Shown piece after piece: positions 4,881-48,736 of a DNA stretch of 64,000 bases. How positions within the stretch are numbered: position 1 is the stretch's first letter; every line of letters starts with the position of its first letter. The stretch is from Branchipolynoe longqiensis (taxonomy: Eukaryota > Annelida > Polychaeta > Phyllodocida > Polynoidae), in assembly GCA_030323885.1 (NCBI GenBank), contig CM059196.1, positions 42,493,798 to 42,557,797 of the forward strand, written 5' to 3'. Under the pieces are notes generated by a model that saw only the letters and a program-made list of their open reading frames with translations, was not told the origin of the DNA and did not search any database. The position numbers and the translations under genes are program-made.

Positions 4881-5850
4881 TGCCCGGCCGCATGAACACC
4901 AGATAATACTACACAATTCTCCCCTTCATCTCACTCCCTGATGCATCCCTTAAACAACCCTTCTACAAACTCCTAAGGAATAAAAGGAAGACAAGTCACA
5001 CAGATAAACAGTGGTGAAATTGTGCTTTAATGGCATCAACTCCTGTCCACCTCCTAGTGGCCTATCACCCACACCCCTTACCTTCTGTTCACACAGAATC
5101 TCATTACTAATTTAGCCTGTATAAGAATAAATGCATACAGCCCATTGAACCGGAGTCCCTTGGGTGTTGCACTCAACTCAATTTAGATATATGAATTTGC
5201 CTAGCATCAGACAGCGTGTCTGGGGTCCCTGCTCTAGAGAAGGTGTGTCTCACTCCAGAGCCAGGAGTAGAGTGATCTCTCTTCAGTGTGTCTGAAGCAG
5301 AGTCTTGAATAATTAATGAATCTCAGAATGAGGATAATGTGGTCAGAGGGCCAAGAGGGCATAGGTGACTTGGCAGTCCCACAGTCAGCCAATCAGGCAC
5401 CCCCACAGCCGCGGTGGGAGCCACCCCCCAGTGGTGGTGGCTGTCACTCAACTCAGCTGCAGGTGGTGTTCTGGGTGCATATGCAAATTAGGCTGTGGTG
5501 GCCCCGCCCATGGTCATGGGAGGACAGGTAGTTGCAAACAGTTACAATAGATCTCTGTTAATATGACCTTTTCTCCAATTGCACTCTTTATGGGTGCATA
5601 GAGAACATGTCAATAATCATGTACTGTTTTCTTATATAGGAACATCTCTTACTTAATTTCAGGCATCATGTAGGAACATATATTTCACATGGCTTATATC
5701 ATGTCACAATGGGAGTGGGACATTATTGCTTTTATATTACATAACCTTGTCCCCACTCCGTCAACCAAGAAAAATAATGCTCTCTGCCAATATATAATTC
5801 TGAACTGAAAATCCGTATATTTTTGCAGCCAGTTGTATGGTGTGACCCAG
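4881..5850. other. ~970-bp unidentified insertion within the 68-bp array
   Basis: The segment separates two pieces of the same tandem array, so it is probably an inserted element. It starts near 'tgcccggccgcatgaac' and ends near 'gtatggtgtgaccca'. I see no paired terminal repeat, no clear duplication and no coding domain. A solo LTR is possible but unproven. Confidence 0.4.
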
Positions 5851-6128
5851 TATAATTCTTTCTAAATTAAGTGCCTACCAACAATTTTCGTTATGTTAAA
5901 TTTGCATGGTCTGACATAGTATAATTATTTCTAAACCAAAATATTGACCTACATCTGTCCACATGTTGAAGTTACATCGTCTGATGTAGCATAATATTTC
6001 TAAATTAAATGCTTTCCAACATGTCTCCTCATGTTAACGTTGTATGGTCCGACCTAGCATAAATATTTCTAATCCGAAATGCTTACCTACATTTGTCCTG
6101 GTGTTAAAGTTGTATGGTCCGACATAAC
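5851..6128 (+). repeat. array of ~68-bp tandem repeat (about four units)
   Basis: Four successive units carry 'catggtctgacatagtataa', 'catcgtctgatgtagcataa', 'tatggtccgacctagcataa' and 'tatggtccgacataacatag', spaced about 68-72 bases apart. tTRIM copy A is inserted in the last unit. Confidence 0.8.
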
Positions 6129-6165
6129 ATAGTGTCGTGGGGGTGATGAAAATGGGAAATACTGC

Positions 6166-6237
6166 GCCTAGAGCGGGACTCGAACCCACATCTCTTTGCA
6201 TTCCGGGCCAGTGTGCTAACCATTATACCACCTAGGC
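6166..6237 (-). other. tRNA-like (Gln-like) unit inside tTRIM A repeat 1
   Basis: 72 nt on the minus strand. The acceptor stem GCCTAG pairs with CTAGGC, the A box is TGGTGTAATGGTTAGCAC (one substitution in this copy), and the T arm GTGGG-TTCGAGT-CCCGC contains a B box. The 5' half closely resembles tRNA-Gln as I remember it. The anticodon arm does not fold well, so this is not a functional tRNA gene. A TTTT run about 20 nt downstream could end pol III transcription. The second repeat carries the same unit at 6485-6556. Confidence 0.75.
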
Positions 6238-6484
6238 TCCCTGATATCAATACACTCCCCACGCCTACCTGTCTATGTGGTTACTTGCCTGAGAGGTCAG
6301 TGCAGACCACTACACTCGTCCCCCTGGAATTGTAAGTCTTGTAATGCTTACAATTACATACATACAGGCAATGCACTAACACATACATACACAGGGTAGG
6401 TTCAACAACCATACAGCAAATCTTGTACAGGATCCTGATCACGGCAACCAGTGTCGTGGGGGTGATGAAAATGGGAAATACTGC

Positions 6485-6556
6485 GCCTAGAGCGGGACTC
6501 GAACCCACATCTCTTTGCATTCCGGGCCAGTGTGCTAACCATTACACCACCTAGGC
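6485..6556 (-). other. tRNA-like unit inside tTRIM A repeat 2
   Basis: Same 72-nt unit as at 6166-6237, with intact acceptor stem, A box and B box. Confidence 0.75.
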
Positions 6557-6637
6557 TCCCTGCTATCAATACACTCCCCACGCCTACCTGTCTATGTGGT
6601 TACTTGCCTGAGAGGTCAGTGCAGACCACTACACTAG

Positions 6638-9981: not shown

Positions 9982-10064
9982 TCATACTGTAGTAGTCTGC
10001 ACTACCCTCTCAGGCAACTACCCACATAGACAGGTAGGCGTGGGTAGTGTGGTGACATCAGGGA

Positions 10065-10136
10065 GCCTAGGTGGTGTAATGGTCAGCACACTGACGTGGA
10101 ATGCAAAGAGATATGGGTTCGAGTCCCACTCTAGGT
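10065..10136 (+). other. tRNA-like unit in tTRIM B repeat 1
   Basis: 72 nt: GCCTAGG acceptor start, A box TGGTGTAATGGTCAGCAC, B box GGGTTCGAGTCCC, and 3' strand CTAGGT with one pair lost relative to copy A. The equivalent unit in repeat 2 is 10369-10440. Confidence 0.72.
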
Positions 10137-10368
10137 GCAATATTTCCCGTTTCATCACTCCCATGACACTGGTCCTGTACAAGCTATGCGCTGTATTGTT
10201 GTTGAACCTACCCTGTGTATGTATGTGTTTGGGAATTGCCTGTATGTATGTAATTGTAACCATTAAAAGACTTACAATTCCAGGGGACGAGTATAGTAGT
10301 CCTCAATGCCCTCTCAGGCAAGTACCCACATAGACAGGTAGGTGTGGGTAGTGTGGTGACATCAGGGA

Positions 10369-10440
10369 GCCTAGGTTGTGTAATGGTTAGCACACTGACC
10401 CGGAATGCAAAGAGATGTGGGTTCGAGTCCTGCTCTAAGT
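10369..10440 (+). other. tRNA-like unit in tTRIM B repeat 2
   Basis: Same unit with A box TTGTGTAATGGTTAGCAC and B box GGGTTCGAGTCC. The acceptor 3' strand has decayed (CTAAGT). TTTT follows at about 10456. Confidence 0.7.
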
Positions 10441-10477
10441 GCAATATTTCCCATTTTCATCACTCCCACGACAATAG

Positions 10478-10903: not shown

Positions 10904-11392
10904 TGTCATGGGGGTGATGAACATGGGAAATATTGCGCCTAGAGCGGGACTTGAACCCAATTCTCTTTGCTAACCATTACACCACCTAGGCTCCCTGATA
11001 TCACCACACTACCCATGCCTACCTGTCTATGTGGTTACTTGCCTGAGCGGTCAGTGTAGCCTACTACACTCGTCCCCCTGGAATTATAAGTCTTTTAAAT
11101 GGTCATTTGATGCTTACAATTACATACATACAGGCAATGCACTACAATATACATACACAGGGTAGGTTCAACAACCATACAGCACTACAGGATCATGGTC
11201 ACGGCACCAGTGTCATGCAGGTGATGGAAATGGTAAATATTCTGCCTAGAGCAGGACCCGAACCCACATCTCTTTTCATTCCGGGTCAGTGTGCTAACCA
11301 TTACACCACCTAGGCTCCCTGATATCACCACACTACTCATGCCTACCTGACTATGTGGTTACTTGACTGAGAGGTCGCTGCAGACTACTACA
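10904..11392 (-). mobile_element. tTRIM copy C with 4-bp target duplication
   Basis: Direct repeats 10904-11068 (165 bp, a 17-bp deletion inside the tRNA-like part) and 11211-11392 (182 bp) flank a 142-bp interior with the same primer-site-like start (c TGGTGCCGTGACC) and purine tract. The element is bounded by ATAC at 10900-10903 and 11393-11396. The surrounding DNA is a TTAA-MITE. The intact tRNA-like unit is 11244-11315. Confidence 0.78.
11244..11315 (-). other. tRNA-like unit in tTRIM C
   Basis: 72 nt with acceptor pairing GCCTAG/CTAGGC (written TGCCTAG on the plus strand), intact A box TGGTGTAATGGTTAGCAC and B box GGGTTCGGGTCC. The partner repeat has a deleted version at 10937-10991. 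Confidence 0.7.
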
Positions 11393-23052: not shown

Positions 23053-23397
23053 AGCGGGCGTGGTAGCTGAAACGGTAGAGCGTTGGCCTCGCCTGTGTGA
23101 GATCCGGAGTACGATTCCCGGTCGAGTCAAACAAATGACTTACAATATTGATACTTGTCGCTTCCTAACTTGGTGGTCGGCATTAATAGGATAGGACTAG
23201 GAGTGGTTAGCAGAGTCTCAAGATAATGTGACTCAGTGAGATATTGAGTTATGGTCCTGGCGGTCATATTGCTCAGCGGGACAGCACTAAAATGTTGCCA
23301 TGAGTGTGCACTGTCTCAAGTCGGTACCCGTCCTGATATATGACCTTAGATGTTGCGAGGATGTAAAATTCAAGCAATGAATCAACCAACTTCCTGG
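23053..23397 (+). mobile_element. SINE-A with an alternative tRNA-like head
   Basis: The head 'gcgggcgtggtagctgaaac' with anticodon-arm-like 'ggcctcgcctgtgtgag' and B box AGTACGATTCCCGG differs from the usual Leu/Ser-like head, yet joins the normal SINE-A body at 'gagtcaaacaaatgactt'. The body runs to 'ggtacccgtcctgatatatg' and the tail. Confidence 0.85.
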
Positions 23398-23606
23398 CAG
23401 CTGAGTATCACCCTTGCTTATATAAACTGGAACACTGCATGAGCTGGCTAGTCAAACACTGTTCATCCACCGCCATCTTTGTTCCTTATAGTCCGAAATT
23501 GAACCATACAGACGATACTTTCTTGTTTATTTCCATGTATCCTTGTAAATACACTAGTTCCCAGGACGGTACTGACCTTGAATATTGTGTTTCAATCATA
23601 ATAAAG

Positions 23607-24527
23607 CTGAAGATCAAATGTGGAGTGCGACAAGGATGTGTTCTATCACCTAGTCTTTTCAACATTCATACAGAAATGATTTTCAGAGAAATAGATGACA
23701 TCATAGGAATAAATGTTGGAGGTGGAAATATCAATAACACAAGATACGCAGACGATACAGCACTGCTAGCCTTAACGTCAAATTGACTACAAGATATAGT
23801 GGATGAAGTAAAAGAAAAAAGTGAGAGATGTGGCCTCAAATGGATGTAAAGAAGACAAAATCCATGGTTGTCAGCAGAAAGGAATACAAACCAAGAGCAG
23901 AGATAAAAGTTAATGGTGTAATCTTGGAGCAGGTAGAGTCATTTGTGTATCTGGGCCATTTAATAACTAGTGATGGCGGATGTGAAAGAGAGATTAAACG
24001 GAGAATAAACATTGCCAAAACAACATTTCTAAAGATGCAGAAAGTACTAACATCTAGAGACATAAATATAAAAACAAGACTCCGACTGCTAAAATGCTAT
24101 GTGTGGTCTACACTTTTATATTGCTGCGAGACATGGACTTTGAAGAAAGCAATAACAACAAAGCTCGATGCATTTGAAATGTGGCAATACAGAAGAATGT
24201 TAAAAATTCCATGGACAGCAATGATAAGCAACGTGGAGGTCCTAACAAGAATGAAAATAAAGAGACAGATAATACAAACGATCAAAAACAGAAAAATTTA
24301 ATACTTTGGCCACATGATATGACACCAGGAATCACAGAGAAGAATAGTGGAAGGGAAGATAGAAGGGAAAAGACCAAGAGGGAGAATGAGAACAACATGG
24401 ATGGACAACATCACTGAGTGGACAGCAATGAGCTATGCGGAATGCGTGAGAGGAACGAATGAGAGGAAGAGATGGAGGTTCATTGCAGCTAACCTTCTTC
24501 GAGAAGACGGCACCCATTGATTGATTG
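23607..24527 (+). pseudogene. broken RTE-like LINE reverse transcriptase, C-terminal part
   Basis: The first frame has reverse-transcriptase motifs GVRQGCVLSPSLFN and YADDT (catalytic Asp pair) and then a TGA at 23784. The thread continues for about 20 codons and shifts into the next frame at 23828 (VKKTKSMVVSRK, VYLGHLITSDGG, CETWTLKK, MWQYRRMLKIPW), where the frame ends at about 24301. The C-terminal tail (FGHM..., GRPRGRMRTTWMDNITEW-like, then ECVRG) follows in another frame. The element ends in TTGATTGATTGA, a short 3' repeat typical of RTE LINEs. The endonuclease and N-terminal RT are missing, so it is dead and 5'-truncated. RTE is my best clade guess from memory. Confidence 0.85.
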
Positions 24528-43833: not shown

Positions 43834-44943
43834 TCAGTTGGTGAGTAGCCTGTGCGCTATAGGCTGAGGCTTCTCTAGTCGTTTGTGGTAATGTCTAGCA
43901 AACGAAGTAGCGGTTTTCCATCCCGCGTGAGCTAGGATCCGTTTAACGGAGATGCCTAGCAATCTTGCCTTGGACACCATTGCACCACGTGTAGAGTGCG
44001 ATGAGTACCTGTCTGTATTTACTCCCGCCAGTTTTAACACATTCATTGTCCATCGGGCGAGGGTATCCCTGGAAATGGCCTTGTGTGGCTTAATAAAGCT
44101 GACCAATAGCTGTCTTGAGTTTCTTATTAATCTTGTCTTGGATATATAATTTCGTATCGCAGATACGACACATAACTTGCGATCCTGAGTGAAACTGGAC
44201 ACCCCTATCGTAGAAAGGGGGTCACCTAATCGGTTTGATTTTAATAAAGTTGATAAATCAAACGTGGCCTCTTTACTGTCAATTTCTAGACCATTCAGCG
44301 ACAGGGCAACTATAGTTTGGCCTCTGTGTCCAGTGACCAGGAGAAGCAAAACTGCGACTTTGAAACCTAAAAGTTTAACGTCCAGAAACTTATTTTCTGG
44401 CCATTTCTTGAAGAGGTTGAACACTAGAGAAACATCCCAAAACCTATTATATTTGGGTTTAGGCGGATTCCTCTGATAAATTGATCGTATGATCCAACAA
44501 ATAACATGGTGTTTACCCATTGTTTGTCCATTAACCCGCGGTAGGATTATCGACAGAGCACATCTGGCAGCGTTAATAGCGCCATATCCTAGGCCTTCGT
44601 CCTCTAGGTAACGTAGGAAGAGTCCTACCTGGGATACTGTGGGAGTCATTGGCTTGACTTTCTTAAGCAGGCAATAAATACCCCATTTCTTTAAATACGT
44701 AGTATACATTTTCACCGTTCCTTTTCTCCACGCATCATCAACCAAACGCTGTTGTGTAATTTTGTCTAAGCCAAACTGTTCTAAATATTTATTTAAAAAA
44801 GGAATGCCACTAACGGAGTTGTCGACACGTTTCCGTGGCGTTCTAGTGGTCCCTGATGTTTGAGGTTTCCTCGGAATCTTGGGAAGCGAAGGCTGCTTTT
44901 GGCTGTGGCTAGTAACGTCGGTAGCCACGGTTGCGTGTGCCAC
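43834..44943 (-). CDS. DIRS tyrosine recombinase (integrase-like)
   Basis: A 369-residue protein that would insert the circular DNA intermediate by site-specific recombination rather than DDE integration. The N-terminal half (about 60-160) fits a SAM-like core-binding domain and 190-360 the catalytic domain. The conserved residues are all present: Arg207 in VTGHRGQT, His316 and Arg319 in SSHSTRG, His339 (with Trp342) in LAHAGW, and the nucleophile Tyr352 in ARHYHK. The frame is uninterrupted. It overlaps the end of the upstream RT-related frame by about 150 bases in a different phase, an arrangement usual in DIRS elements, so translation probably needs reinitiation or an internal start. The ATG used is the first in frame and the true start could be internal. 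Confidence 0.9.
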   Translation of the reverse strand: MAHATVATDVTSHSQKQPSLPKIPRKPQTSGTTRTPRKRVDNSVSGIPFLNKYLEQFGLDKITQQRLVDDAWRKGTVKMYTTYLKKWGIYCLLKKVKPMTPTVSQVGLFLRYLEDEGLGYGAINAARCALSIILPRVNGQTMGKHHVICWIIRSIYQRNPPKPKYNRFWDVSLVFNLFKKWPENKFLDVKLLGFKVAVLLLLVTGHRGQTIVALSLNGLEIDSKEATFDLSTLLKSNRLGDPLSTIGVSSFTQDRKLCVVSAIRNYISKTRLIRNSRQLLVSFIKPHKAISRDTLARWTMNVLKLAGVNTDRYSSHSTRGAMVSKARLLGISVKRILAHAGWKTATSFARHYHKRLEKPQPIAHRLLTN

Positions 44944-45233
44944 TCGGGGACGATGAGTATGGCGTGTGTCCCCTCCATTTGAATCTTTCTGGCGACTTTG
45001 CTAATGATAGTAAAGGGGGGGAAAATGTAAAAGAAATGATGTCGCCACTTTAGGGAGAAGGCATCAATGTGCCAAGCATTGGGTTCCGGGTGCCACGAAA
45101 CATATTTTGGAATTTTAAAGTTATTACGCGAAGCGAACAAATCGATCTGAGGTGAACCCCATGTGTGACAAATGTGTTTGAAAATGGATGGATTAAGTGA
45201 CCACTCTAAGTGATCATGGAACTGGCGACTCAT
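44793..45233 (-). CDS. continuation of DIRS RT-RNase H polyprotein (post-RNase H domain)
   Basis: 146 codons beginning MSRQFHDHLEW. The segment after RNase H in DIRS proteins typically has a PSIF...WG...DLFASR...W motif. Here it reads NPSIFKHICHTWG, IDLFASRNN and SWHPEPNAWHIDAF, with a C-terminal 'PEWHTQPWLPTL'. It belongs to the same protein as 45242-46702 but lies in another frame: coding similarity crosses the stop at about 45242 with a one-base offset. That is most simply a frameshift mutation, less likely programmed. The last 150 bases overlap the recombinase frame. Confidence 0.82.
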   Translation of the reverse strand: MSRQFHDHLEWSLNPSIFKHICHTWGSPQIDLFASRNNFKIPKYVSWHPEPNAWHIDAFSLKWRHHFFYIFPPFTIISKVARKIQMEGTHAILIVPEWHTQPWLPTLLATAKSSLRFPRFRGNLKHQGPLERHGNVSTTPLVAFLF

Positions 45234-45241
45234 CTTGTCAG

Positions 45242-46702
45242 CTAGACAATTTGTGTGCCTGGAATGTGATTAACAGTTAACCAGACATCAAAGGTTTGAG
45301 CCCAGTTCCAAATGAGAAGTGCCATTGCATTACATTTAATCGATTTTGTACCTCCCATATTTCTGACATAAGCCATAGCTGTGGTGTTATCCGTGAGGAT
45401 ACGTACATTATTTTTGGGTATTTTTACTAGACTGGTTAATCCCAAGTAAATGGCCCTTAGTTCTAGAACGTTAATATGATCGGGGAGTTCCGATTCTAGC
45501 CATCTTCCTCCCGTTGCTACATCATTTTGATGTGCTCCCCACCCTTGGAGAGACGCGTCAGTGGTAACGGTAGTGTCAGGCTCTCCCATTCTAATGGGAT
45601 TGGGGGAATGGTCAAAGTGGTTTAGCCACCAATCAATGTCGGCTAGGCCGTTCTCCGAAATAAACATGGTCTTTTCAAAGTTTCCCTTTGCGCGGGCCAG
45701 CGCCAAATTTTTATCAATTTCGAGGGATTTTATGTGTGCCGCTCCGTATAGAATAGCGGGACTATACGAAACCATGACCCCGATAAGGACCGCGACCTGT
45801 CTAATCTTTGGCCTAGAAGTGTCTAACAGCTGTATCGCTGTGCGGTAAAGCTTATCTTTCTTTTGGCGTGTAAGCGAAACGGTCATAGCCGTGGTGTTCA
45901 GAATGAACCCGAGACACTTAAGCTCCTGAGTAGGAGAAAAAACCGATTTCTTGTTATGTATGAAGAAACCCAATTTGGTGAAAATTTTGCATAAATCTTT
46001 AACAGCGAGTTCACATTGCGTGAAAGATTGGCCCATAATAAAAGAATCATCTATGTATGGAAACATACAATGCCCCAATTTTGCCATGTGTGCAAAAATT
46101 GGTTTCAACAACTTAGTAAACAGACGCGGTGCGCAGGCCAAACCATTAGGTAAACATGTAAATTCAAAAAGTTGGCCATTCCAGAGAAAACGTAGGTATT
46201 TCCGATCTGTCTGGTGAATAGGAACGGTGTAGTACGCATCCCTTAAATCAACACTCGCTAGCCAACACCCTGGGGTAATTAAATCACGAGCTGTTTCTAA
46301 AGAAAACATTTTGAAATGTTTGTATTCAATGATTTCATTCAACTGAGTTAAATCTAAAATCATTCGGATTGAACCATCAGGTTTAGGAGTAGAGAAGATA
46401 TTGGAAATATATTCCCCTTCAGTATGTTCAACTCTGTTGACAATGCCCTTAGACTCAAACAGTAGAACCTGGTGATCTAGCTGAGATTTTTCTAGTGAAT
46501 TAAACTGATACGGAAAAGGCGCTCTCTTTTGTATAGGCAATTGTGTGAAAGGGATGTGAATGCCTTTAACAATATTCAGGACCTCTGGATTAGTGGTTAA
46601 CTGTTGCCATTGATGTAAACAATTAGAAACATTCCCTGCTTGAAAAAGGCTTACTTCAGTTTGAGTTTCCTCCGTGACCATTGTAGGGTCAGGAGGCTGC
46701 AC
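45242..46702 (-). CDS. DIRS reverse transcriptase-RNase H (3'-truncated by frameshift)
   Basis: 486 residues. Reverse transcriptase spans about 75-275: template-grip region FSTPKPDGSIRMILDL, catalytic Asp152 in SVDLRDAYYTVP, LPNGLACAPRLFTK, and the YIDD box at 216-219 (the third and fourth residues are the catalytic pair). RNase H spans about 375-480, with Asp382 (TTDAS), Glu414 (LELRA) and Asp438 (LTDNTTA). It ends at HIPGTQIV where related proteins continue, and the missing part is in the next frame downstream. The start ATG follows the gag-like stop by 17 bases in a different phase. It would copy the element's RNA. The frameshift truncates the protein after RNase H and probably affects function. 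Confidence 0.9.
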   Translation of the reverse strand: MQPPDPTMVTEETQTEVSLFQAGNVSNCLHQWQQLTTNPEVLNIVKGIHIPFTQLPIQKRAPFPYQFNSLEKSQLDHQVLLFESKGIVNRVEHTEGEYISNIFSTPKPDGSIRMILDLTQLNEIIEYKHFKMFSLETARDLITPGCWLASVDLRDAYYTVPIHQTDRKYLRFLWNGQLFEFTCLPNGLACAPRLFTKLLKPIFAHMAKLGHCMFPYIDDSFIMGQSFTQCELAVKDLCKIFTKLGFFIHNKKSVFSPTQELKCLGFILNTTAMTVSLTRQKKDKLYRTAIQLLDTSRPKIRQVAVLIGVMVSYSPAILYGAAHIKSLEIDKNLALARAKGNFEKTMFISENGLADIDWWLNHFDHSPNPIRMGEPDTTVTTDASLQGWGAHQNDVATGGRWLESELPDHINVLELRAIYLGLTSLVKIPKNNVRILTDNTTAMAYVRNMGGTKSIKCNAMALLIWNWAQTFDVWLTVNHIPGTQIV

Positions 46703-46719
46703 TGTTTGTGTGGAAATCT

Positions 46720-48069
46720 CTACTTGTTCCCTTGTTTCGGGAACTGGGGCTTGGGAACGAAATCCCTCTTGTAGCCGCGGTTGTCGTTCCAGTTTGAGGC
46801 CGGCCTGTCGCCTCGGCCCCTTCCTCGCTGGTTGAACTGGAAGGACGGTCCGCCCCTGAACGGCCTTCCTCCTCTGCGGAATCGAAAATCCGTCCTAGAC
46901 TTTCTGAACCCTGCTGGGTTTTGGAAGCGACGACTCTTTGCTTCAGTGTTTTTAGCACTCTTGTAGTCGACCTCTACCTGTTTGTACAGGTAAGCTAGCT
47001 GACCCCCAAACATCTTGGATTTATCTAGCGGTTTGCTCTTGATAGGGGTAGGTCCGGAATACACGGTGTATTCCTTACCATCATGGTCCGTTACCTTGTT
47101 CGAGCGGGCAACCTCTTTTCCGGCATCTGTGGTGACCGATTTGAAAACGTTTTCAAATCTCCGATGGGTCATGTAGTTACTAGCGGCTGCTAACAAAGCT
47201 ATGCCCCGGTCCATAACCCGCGCCAAAGACGAGAACTTGTTCTCTGTCTGCATCCTGTTAGCCACAGGGATAACAGACGTCAAGGCACCCAAAACTGCCT
47301 TATGGATAAGGCAGAGGGAAGTTTCATAACGACGGCGTTCGTCGGAAAGATGAATGCCGGAATCCATCTCTTTGAAAACCGAAGCAGGAATGCCCTTAAC
47401 TCCTGAAATCTGCTCAGTCAACTTGTTGATGACTTCGATCGGTTTAAACGTAGTGAAATGGCTATTCACCGTTTTGCGCATCATGGTAGTGGTGCGCACT
47501 TTCTGAGCTTTCTTTTTGACAATTTTCTTGCCAGCTTTAACGCCTATTTTGGCGTAGACACCCGCTCGTTCCGTGTCGGAATCCGACTCGGTGGAAGAAG
47601 AGTCGGACGACGAGTCTGAAGAAGAGTCCTTCTTCTTCTTCTTCTTTTTCTTTTTGGACTTTTTGGAGCGCTTAGACTTCGCTTTCTTTGTGAACTCGTC
47701 ACCAGAACTGCTCACTGGGCGGCGTTTCTTGCCGCGCGCTTTCGGTTTCGGAACCTCAGGTGCCGAAAGCGTGTCCTCTTCGTCCTCAGAAAAGTCTTCC
47801 CAATCCTCATCAGGGATTTGGGAAGGATCTGGAAAGGTCTGCGCCTGGAAAAGGCGCATCTTCTCCTCCATCATCTCCGCCATTTTCGCCTCCCACCCCA
47901 CTGGTTGAGGGGCGTGATCACTGTCTTGATCCGAGGCATGAGCCCCAGGATGTGGGGACGGCGGAGCCGTAGCCGGTGGAGACGAATCGTAATCCGTAGG
48001 GGGGACACCCACCGCTGCAGCGGGCGGCTTATTCCGGCGAGTGGCCATCGGGAACTGTAACGAAACCAA
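46720..48069 (-). CDS. DIRS gag-like protein (ORF1)
   Basis: 449 residues with no enzymatic motif, in the position of the gag-like ORF of DIRS elements. A Pro/acidic N-terminal part (about 1-105, EDWEDFSEDEED) is followed by a poly-Lys stretch (nine Lys after SKKSK) and a Ser/Asp-rich segment, possibly a nuclear localisation signal beside a phospho-acidic patch. A central helical region (about 195-370) may be the multimerisation core. The C-terminus is Arg/Gly-rich (FRFRRGGRPFRGG, NQRGRGRGDRP), suited to RNA binding. The frame is intact. The likely start is the second Met, MATRRNKP at 48048, because the first seven codons are unremarkable. Confidence 0.8.
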   Translation of the reverse strand: MVSLQFPMATRRNKPPAAAVGVPPTDYDSSPPATAPPSPHPGAHASDQDSDHAPQPVGWEAKMAEMMEEKMRLFQAQTFPDPSQIPDEDWEDFSEDEEDTLSAPEVPKPKARGKKRRPVSSSGDEFTKKAKSKRSKKSKKKKKKKKKDSSSDSSSDSSSTESDSDTERAGVYAKIGVKAGKKIVKKKAQKVRTTTMMRKTVNSHFTTFKPIEVINKLTEQISGVKGIPASVFKEMDSGIHLSDERRRYETSLCLIHKAVLGALTSVIPVANRMQTENKFSSLARVMDRGIALLAAASNYMTHRRFENVFKSVTTDAGKEVARSNKVTDHDGKEYTVYSGPTPIKSKPLDKSKMFGGQLAYLYKQVEVDYKSAKNTEAKSRRFQNPAGFRKSRTDFRFRRGGRPFRGGPSFQFNQRGRGRGDRPASNWNDNRGYKRDFVPKPQFPKQGNK

Positions 48070-48736
48070 AGCGTTACTAACCCGGAATCATCTCAACTAC
48101 ACAAGTGTAAGCCAGTAAACTGGGTTGAGGAACATGGTACAGAGAACGTGTGTTGCAACGTGTCAGTACAGGCGTGAAGCTAAATTTGCCGTAGGTGTGT
48201 GGTAACGAAACCAACCAAACGGAGGGCATCGATCGTGAGATCGGCCCCTCTCTCTGTTCCGTACACTTCTCCCACCTGTGGCTACAGCGCCAACAAGTTG
48301 GAGAAAATATTACGAAACTCGGAGGTTCGCCTTAAACCGGTCAGGGGTGTTTATAAAAAACACCCAGAAGCATCCCCAACATCATCCTCTATTAGGATCC
48401 GGGAGACTTTTCTTAGGAAATGAGCAACTCGGGTTGCCATTTCTCCCTGTCTGAAAAACAGGTGTCGATAGAACTCAGTATCGGTTTCGTTTGTGCCAGC
48501 GGCACGCAATGTTCTATCCGTAAGTTAAAAAACGTACAAAGTCCAAACAGGACTGAAGAAAGTTCTGAACTTTCATAAAAAGATGCTATAGAGCATGATA
48601 AACAAAGTTATCGAAGAAAACAGTACTTACTTTTGGATAAAAGCAGTAGTAGTAGATAAATCCTGTGGAGCAACTCACAAACGTCCTCCCGTTGTGAGTT
48701 ACTTATGCTAATTGCTGGACCCGGATGTGCTTCCTT
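48070..48736 (-). other. DIRS 5' leader
   Basis: About 670 bases between the terminal repeat and ORF1. It begins with 'aaggaagcacatccgggtcc' shared with mini-DIRS, expected to contain the promoter. I see no clear TATA box and no long frame. Confidence 0.6.

Follow-up and report, generated by a model that had tools for sequence, protein, structure and literature searches.

The window analysed here, a stretch of 64,000 nucleotides, holds on its minus strand two direct repeats that each contain a tRNA-like unit, and the question raised by this locus is what kind of element carries such a unit twice within 501 bp. We consider it very probable that the element is a non-autonomous TRIM-type LTR retrotransposon with a tRNA-derived pol III promoter in its LTR, that is, a Helenus family.

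Structure of the element and its older relatives

The features of the element, hereafter copy A, are listed below, the LTRs being named in the sense orientation.

6133..6633, minus strand: whole element, TG...CA, 501 bp
6452..6633, minus strand: 5' LTR, 182 bp
6133..6314, minus strand: 3' LTR, 182 bp, two differences from the 5' LTR
6315..6451, minus strand: internal region, 137 bp
6437..6450, minus strand: PBS-like TGGTTGCCGTGATC, starting one base 3' of the 5' LTR
6320..6326, minus strand: PPT-like CAGGGGG, separated from the 3' LTR by five bases (ACGAG)
6485..6556, minus strand: tRNA-like unit of the 5' LTR, 72 nt, with A and B boxes and paired acceptor strands; called by ARAGORN and Rfam (47.1 bits)
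6166..6237, minus strand: tRNA-like unit of the 3' LTR, 72 nt; called by ARAGORN and Rfam (41.0 bits)
6468..6471, minus strand: TTTT downstream of the tRNA-like unit in the 5' LTR, candidate pol III terminator and putative end of R
6149..6152, minus strand: TTTT downstream of the tRNA-like unit in the 3' LTR
6634..6637, minus strand: 5' flank of the target duplication, CTAG in sense
6129..6132, minus strand: 3' flank of the target duplication, CTAT in sense, 3/4 match

An earlier sequence-only reading had proposed two 182-bp direct repeats with two differences, TG...CA ends and a 137-bp interior with a PBS-like start and a PPT-like end, all of which are found on the minus strand. The longest stretch common to both repeats is 186 nt and reads AG-TG...CA-CT, while the interior, on the minus strand, starts with C-TGGTTGCCGTGATC and ends with CCAGGGGGACGAG (CAGGGGG-ACGAG). 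The target duplication of this copy is imperfect, and in the frame list of the window no stop-to-stop frame of at least 130 aa overlaps the element.

Two older copies of the family lie in the same window.

9988..10473, plus strand: older copy B, 86% identical, PBS region mostly deleted, flanks ATAC/ATAG (3/4)
10904..11392, minus strand: older copy C, 84% identical, exact 4-bp duplication ATAC, single-T PBS TGGTGCCGTGACC

An arbitrary sample of 20 stretches of 10 kb, taken at round-number positions and making up 264 kb together with the window, contained one full old element (L051, duplication CATA), a single LTR with no clear duplication (L060) and decayed pieces (L050 and L061). Given these old, decayed copies and the young copies described below, the family looks both long-lived and recently active.

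Several other features were noted in the sampled DNA. In L048, at 5836-6350, an LTR of the family is split by an insertion of about 330 bp. Positions 5833-6131 of the window, next to the insertion site of copy A, are taken up by diverged repeats in tandem (spacings 138 and 69 nt). A COX1 search of the whole assembly gave no match. As judged by eye from the translations, the window also carries DIRS-type-looking frames, reverse-transcriptase-like and tyrosine-recombinase-like, at 43834-48087 (minus strand), and LINE-type reverse transcriptase remnants in two frames at 23367-24301 (plus strand).

The tRNA-like unit and its putative promoter

ARAGORN called one tRNA-Ser(GGA) in each repeat of copy A, and both units score above the gathering threshold (29) of the Rfam tRNA model RF00005. 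Together with the paired acceptor strands and an intact B box, GGTTCGAGTCC, this confirms the 72-nt tRNA-like unit previously read in each repeat. The A box and D arm are presumably tRNA-Gln-like. In the window tRNA alone reached its Rfam threshold; two antisense matches to another family at the repeats of copy A fell far under the threshold of that family. Genome-wide, the unit has 24,096 matches at three mismatches or fewer, against 0 for a reversed-pattern control, which excludes a chance origin. All eight Rfam tRNA matches in the 264 kb lie within copies of this family. Even in the old copies B and C, three of the four LTRs still pass the threshold of the tRNA model, the one below it being at 10904-11070.

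These motifs suggest that the tRNA-like unit is used by pol III. Alternatively, pol II may transcribe the TRIM from U3 and the tRNA-like unit may be a passenger, for instance a SINE that inserted into the LTR long ago; this we regard as unlikely. Conservation was compared in a set of 40 copies, comprising the window copy and 39 copies fetched with their flanks, which are the best 40 of 1,908 candidates and 95-100% identical; the set was picked by likeness to the window copy, so that close relatives are over-represented and LTR ages are unrepresentative. In agreement with a passenger, the mean major-allele frequency of the tRNA-like unit in this set is no better than that of U3 (0.985 vs 0.983), and for the A-box stretch the value falls to 0.972, mainly through LTR position 89, where the set is biased. 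However, none of the other stretches compared is as conserved as the B box (0.993), the units of copies B and C have largely remained recognizable to the tRNA model, the sense strand of the window copy contains neither AATAAA nor ATTAAA, and boxes A and B are conserved across Helenus families (Kojima 2024, PMC10886601).

Downstream of the unit, a T4 run at LTR position 163 is conserved in 34 of 37 5' LTRs and intact in 76 of 80 LTRs of the set. Two further signs were rejected: the scarcity of T4 runs outside the LTRs, which as evidence of pol III use is not significant (two or fewer in 89.8% of shuffles), and the stability of the cloverleaf, for which the lone RNA shows no significant preference (z -0.84).

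Genome copies and target duplications

Two LTRs or more are present in each of the 40 close copies. The count is three in L036, L045 and L047; one LTR of L040 is truncated, and an additional fragment occurs in L022. Exact 4-bp target duplications flank 27 of the 39 assessable copies (L030 was dropped for an N), as compared with 120 of 5,460 shifted comparisons (2.2%), and exact 5-bp duplications were found in none of the 40. A few of the 27 could be due to chance, as the duplication of L034 sits in a TTA repeat and several others in AT repeats. The exact duplications favour NTAN, 22 of the 27 having T as their second base and 24 having A as their third, and the three-LTR copy L045 has a single exact outer duplication, CTAT. 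Among the 12 copies that have no exact duplication, which include the window copy, some are arrays or have altered ends: interior sequence stands directly ahead of L022 and L047, the array continuing upstream, and the 3' LTR of L040 is altered. Five of the 12 mismatch at the fourth base alone. In L009, L033, L038, L039, the window copy and L087, three duplication bases match and the fourth base on the 5' side is G, the base usually preceding the 3' LTR; the old copy B is an exception to this rule.

A second set was drawn from matches to the 72-nt unit and not by similarity of the whole element. In the first 12.4 Mb of C1, 69 places among the one-mismatch matches listed reduce to 42 loci, 19 of which have at least two units among the matches listed, four of these having three to six; at a fifth such locus (3373201/3373846) the spacing of 645 implies three units. 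The other 23 loci are apparent singles, of which 20 were fetched (L068-L087). They comprise 14 LTR-internal-LTR copies, three solo LTRs, one rearranged copy (L078) and two parts of arrays (L072 and L086), within both of which the fetched stretch ends. Exact 4-bp duplications flank 14 of the 20, including two solo LTRs (L077, CTAT; L083, ATAT), whereas the third solo LTR, L080, has none.

Variants are shared between both LTRs of a copy far more often than under shuffling: 242 of 296 cells match (37 two-LTR copies by eight variable columns), against a mean of 180.7 and a maximum of 208 in 2,000 shuffles. This is expected if a single template served for both LTRs. Within a pair, the LTRs differ at 0-19 of about 182 sites, and those of L023 and L027 are identical. 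At LTR position 89 the 40 top-scoring copies read GA (14), GG (18), AA (4), AG (0) or, in those with three LTRs, GGA (3), with one single reading. Since the query copy is itself GA, the excess of GA is attributed to ascertainment, and a real 5'/3' asymmetry was rejected because GA is absent from L068-L087, in which 14 loci are all G, L075 and L078 are A then G, and four gave a single reading. These 20 have a bias of their own, being drawn from one-mismatch matches to a pattern with A at position 89; exact A units are rare (31 among the matches listed genome-wide).

The support that the sequence-only reading had asked of the genome, LTR-internal-LTR copies with short duplications together with solo repeats, is thus present in both sets or in the second, and neither A-rich tails nor duplications of 10-15 bp, by which it would have recognized a SINE, were seen in the copies examined. 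A tRNA-derived SINE in dimeric or tandem form, mobilised by a LINE, would share the tRNA-like head with A and B boxes and could fit the head-to-tail arrays, but it is very improbable in view of the fixed 4-bp duplications at the LTR termini, the TG...CA ends, the PBS- and PPT-like sites, the solo LTRs, the LTR concordance and flanks that, where examined, show no A-rich tail. A tandem cluster of genuine tRNA genes has next to no probability, even though ARAGORN and Rfam both call a tRNA, as the Rfam alignment contains two non-standard anticodon-stem pairs, the Ser anticodon comes with no long variable arm, the insertions are dispersed and flanked by target duplications, and the unit occurs 24,096 times.

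Primer-binding site and polypurine tract

In the 40 close copies the PBS takes the form TTGCCGTGA in 33 and the single-T form TGGTGCCGTGA in seven. The single-T form fits what we take to be the complement of the 3' end of an animal tRNA-His, and TGGTTGCCGTGATC resembles this presumed complement, with one extra T and a C>T change. Four versions, TT/T, T/C, TT/C and T/T, are seen in 29, 5, 4 and 2 of the 40 copies, respectively. As the PBS is usually reset by reverse transcription to match the primer, an extra T in the majority of young copies is unexpected. Either a variant host tRNA or a tolerated bulge may explain it; a host tRNA ending in ...CACGGCAACCA would account for the extra T. At the other end of the interior, CAGGGGG is present in 37 of 40 copies and absent in L031, L036 and L047. 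A scan of the 264 kb for TGG-T(T)-GCCGTGA returned two copies of the family and one other site, in L057, and no helper element was found there.

Proposed mechanism of transposition

For the TRIM-type element favoured here, we propose that pol III would start near the tRNA-like unit, at LTR position 78, which would place U3 at about 1-77, let R extend from about 78 as far as the TTTT (163-166) and leave about 16 nt for U5. Some transcripts would pass the TTTT of the 5' LTR and stop at that of the 3' LTR, and this read-through of the first T4, which a full template needs, would yield a template some 410 nt long that begins and ends with R. An autonomous Gypsy-type element would supply the reverse transcriptase, capsid and integrase, and a tRNA with a tRNA-His-like 3' end may prime the first strand. 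The integrase would then trim ..CACT to ..CA and join the ends to target cuts 4 bp apart, with a preference for NTAN. The common LTR ends AG-TG...CA-CT fit such retroviral-type end processing, and the G at the fourth 5' base in six copies is as a partly kept two-base AG overhang would give.

An abundant family with recent copies makes the promoter activity of Helenus elements testable. It also calls for caution in annotation: in such a genome uncurated counts of tRNA genes would probably be dominated by the element, as all of the Rfam tRNA matches in the sampled DNA (8/8 in 264 kb) belong to it. A more far-reaching claim strikes us as quite doubtful: that no known TRIMp3 family is more abundant, that its host lies outside the groups on record for molluscan Helenus, that the PBS of the active lineage became one base longer because a variant tRNA primes it, and that one genome holds tens of thousands of mobile pol III promoters.

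Comparison with known systems

The structural reading proposed from the sequence, a TRIM with a tRNA-like unit in its LTRs as an animal counterpart of Cassandra, is supported by the 4-bp duplications and the solo LTRs. Like Cassandra, a plant TRIM, the element is a coding-free LTR element with pol III promoter-type sequence in the LTR and forms tandem arrays, which are reported for Cassandra as well (PMC7215508). In contrast, its LTR sequence is tRNA-derived and that of Cassandra 5S rRNA-derived, and membership of Cassandra was rejected on the Rfam result for the window. With Ajax, a nemertean TRIM, it shares the TRIMp3 layout, but Ajax contains a partial 5S sequence and makes 5-bp duplications (PMC10886601). 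The bivalve biv-TRIM (Satovic 2019, PMC6934838) is likewise a short coding-free LTR element with solo and tandem forms; in the accessible part of that source it has repeats of 202-218 bp, an interior of 77-80 bp and the PPT GGGGAGA, and 'polymerase III' occurs 0 times in the main text. By this description, membership of biv-TRIM was rejected, the present element having 182 and 137 bp and CAGGGGG. Membership of the tRNA-derived SINEs was also rejected, as neither an A-rich or LINE-like tail nor variable, longer duplications were found.

The closest likeness is to Helenus, the TRIMs with tRNA-derived LTR sequence described and named by Kojima (2024, PMC10886601), so that the earlier statement that no description was known did not hold as to kind. 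In the accessible part of the literature since 2023, 'Helenus' as the name of an LTR retrotransposon appears only in that paper and in a meeting report citing it. Helenus elements have a PBS and a PPT between the LTRs, occur as solo LTRs and measure 311-1263 bp in total; in animals they make 4-bp duplications, tRNA-His is among the bivalve primers, and mobilisation by Gypsy was inferred by Kojima from PBS similarity (PMC10886601). Tandem arrays are reported for LTR-11_DR, Pteriomorphia are the only molluscs on record, and according to the discussion of that paper the promoters lack experimental validation (PMC10886601).

The present family resembles them in being a short, gene-free TRIM of 501 bp with two LTRs, in the tRNA-derived A- and B-box sequence in both LTRs, in the PPT before the 3' LTR (CAGGGGG in 37/40), in the solo LTRs and tandem arrays and, as regards animal Helenus, in the 4-bp duplications (27/39 and 14/20 exact vs 2.2% in the control). 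As to the PBS, the dominant form here carries one extra T relative to the presumed tRNA-His complement. The copy number looks unusually high for Helenus, with 24,096 units (three mismatches or fewer in 72 nt) vs 5,575 LTRs of LTR-11_DR and 1,124 of Helenus-2C_CGi, figures obtained under different counting rules. Matched to Helenus by description rather than by consensus sequences, this is a new family, possibly already catalogued, of a kind that is already known.
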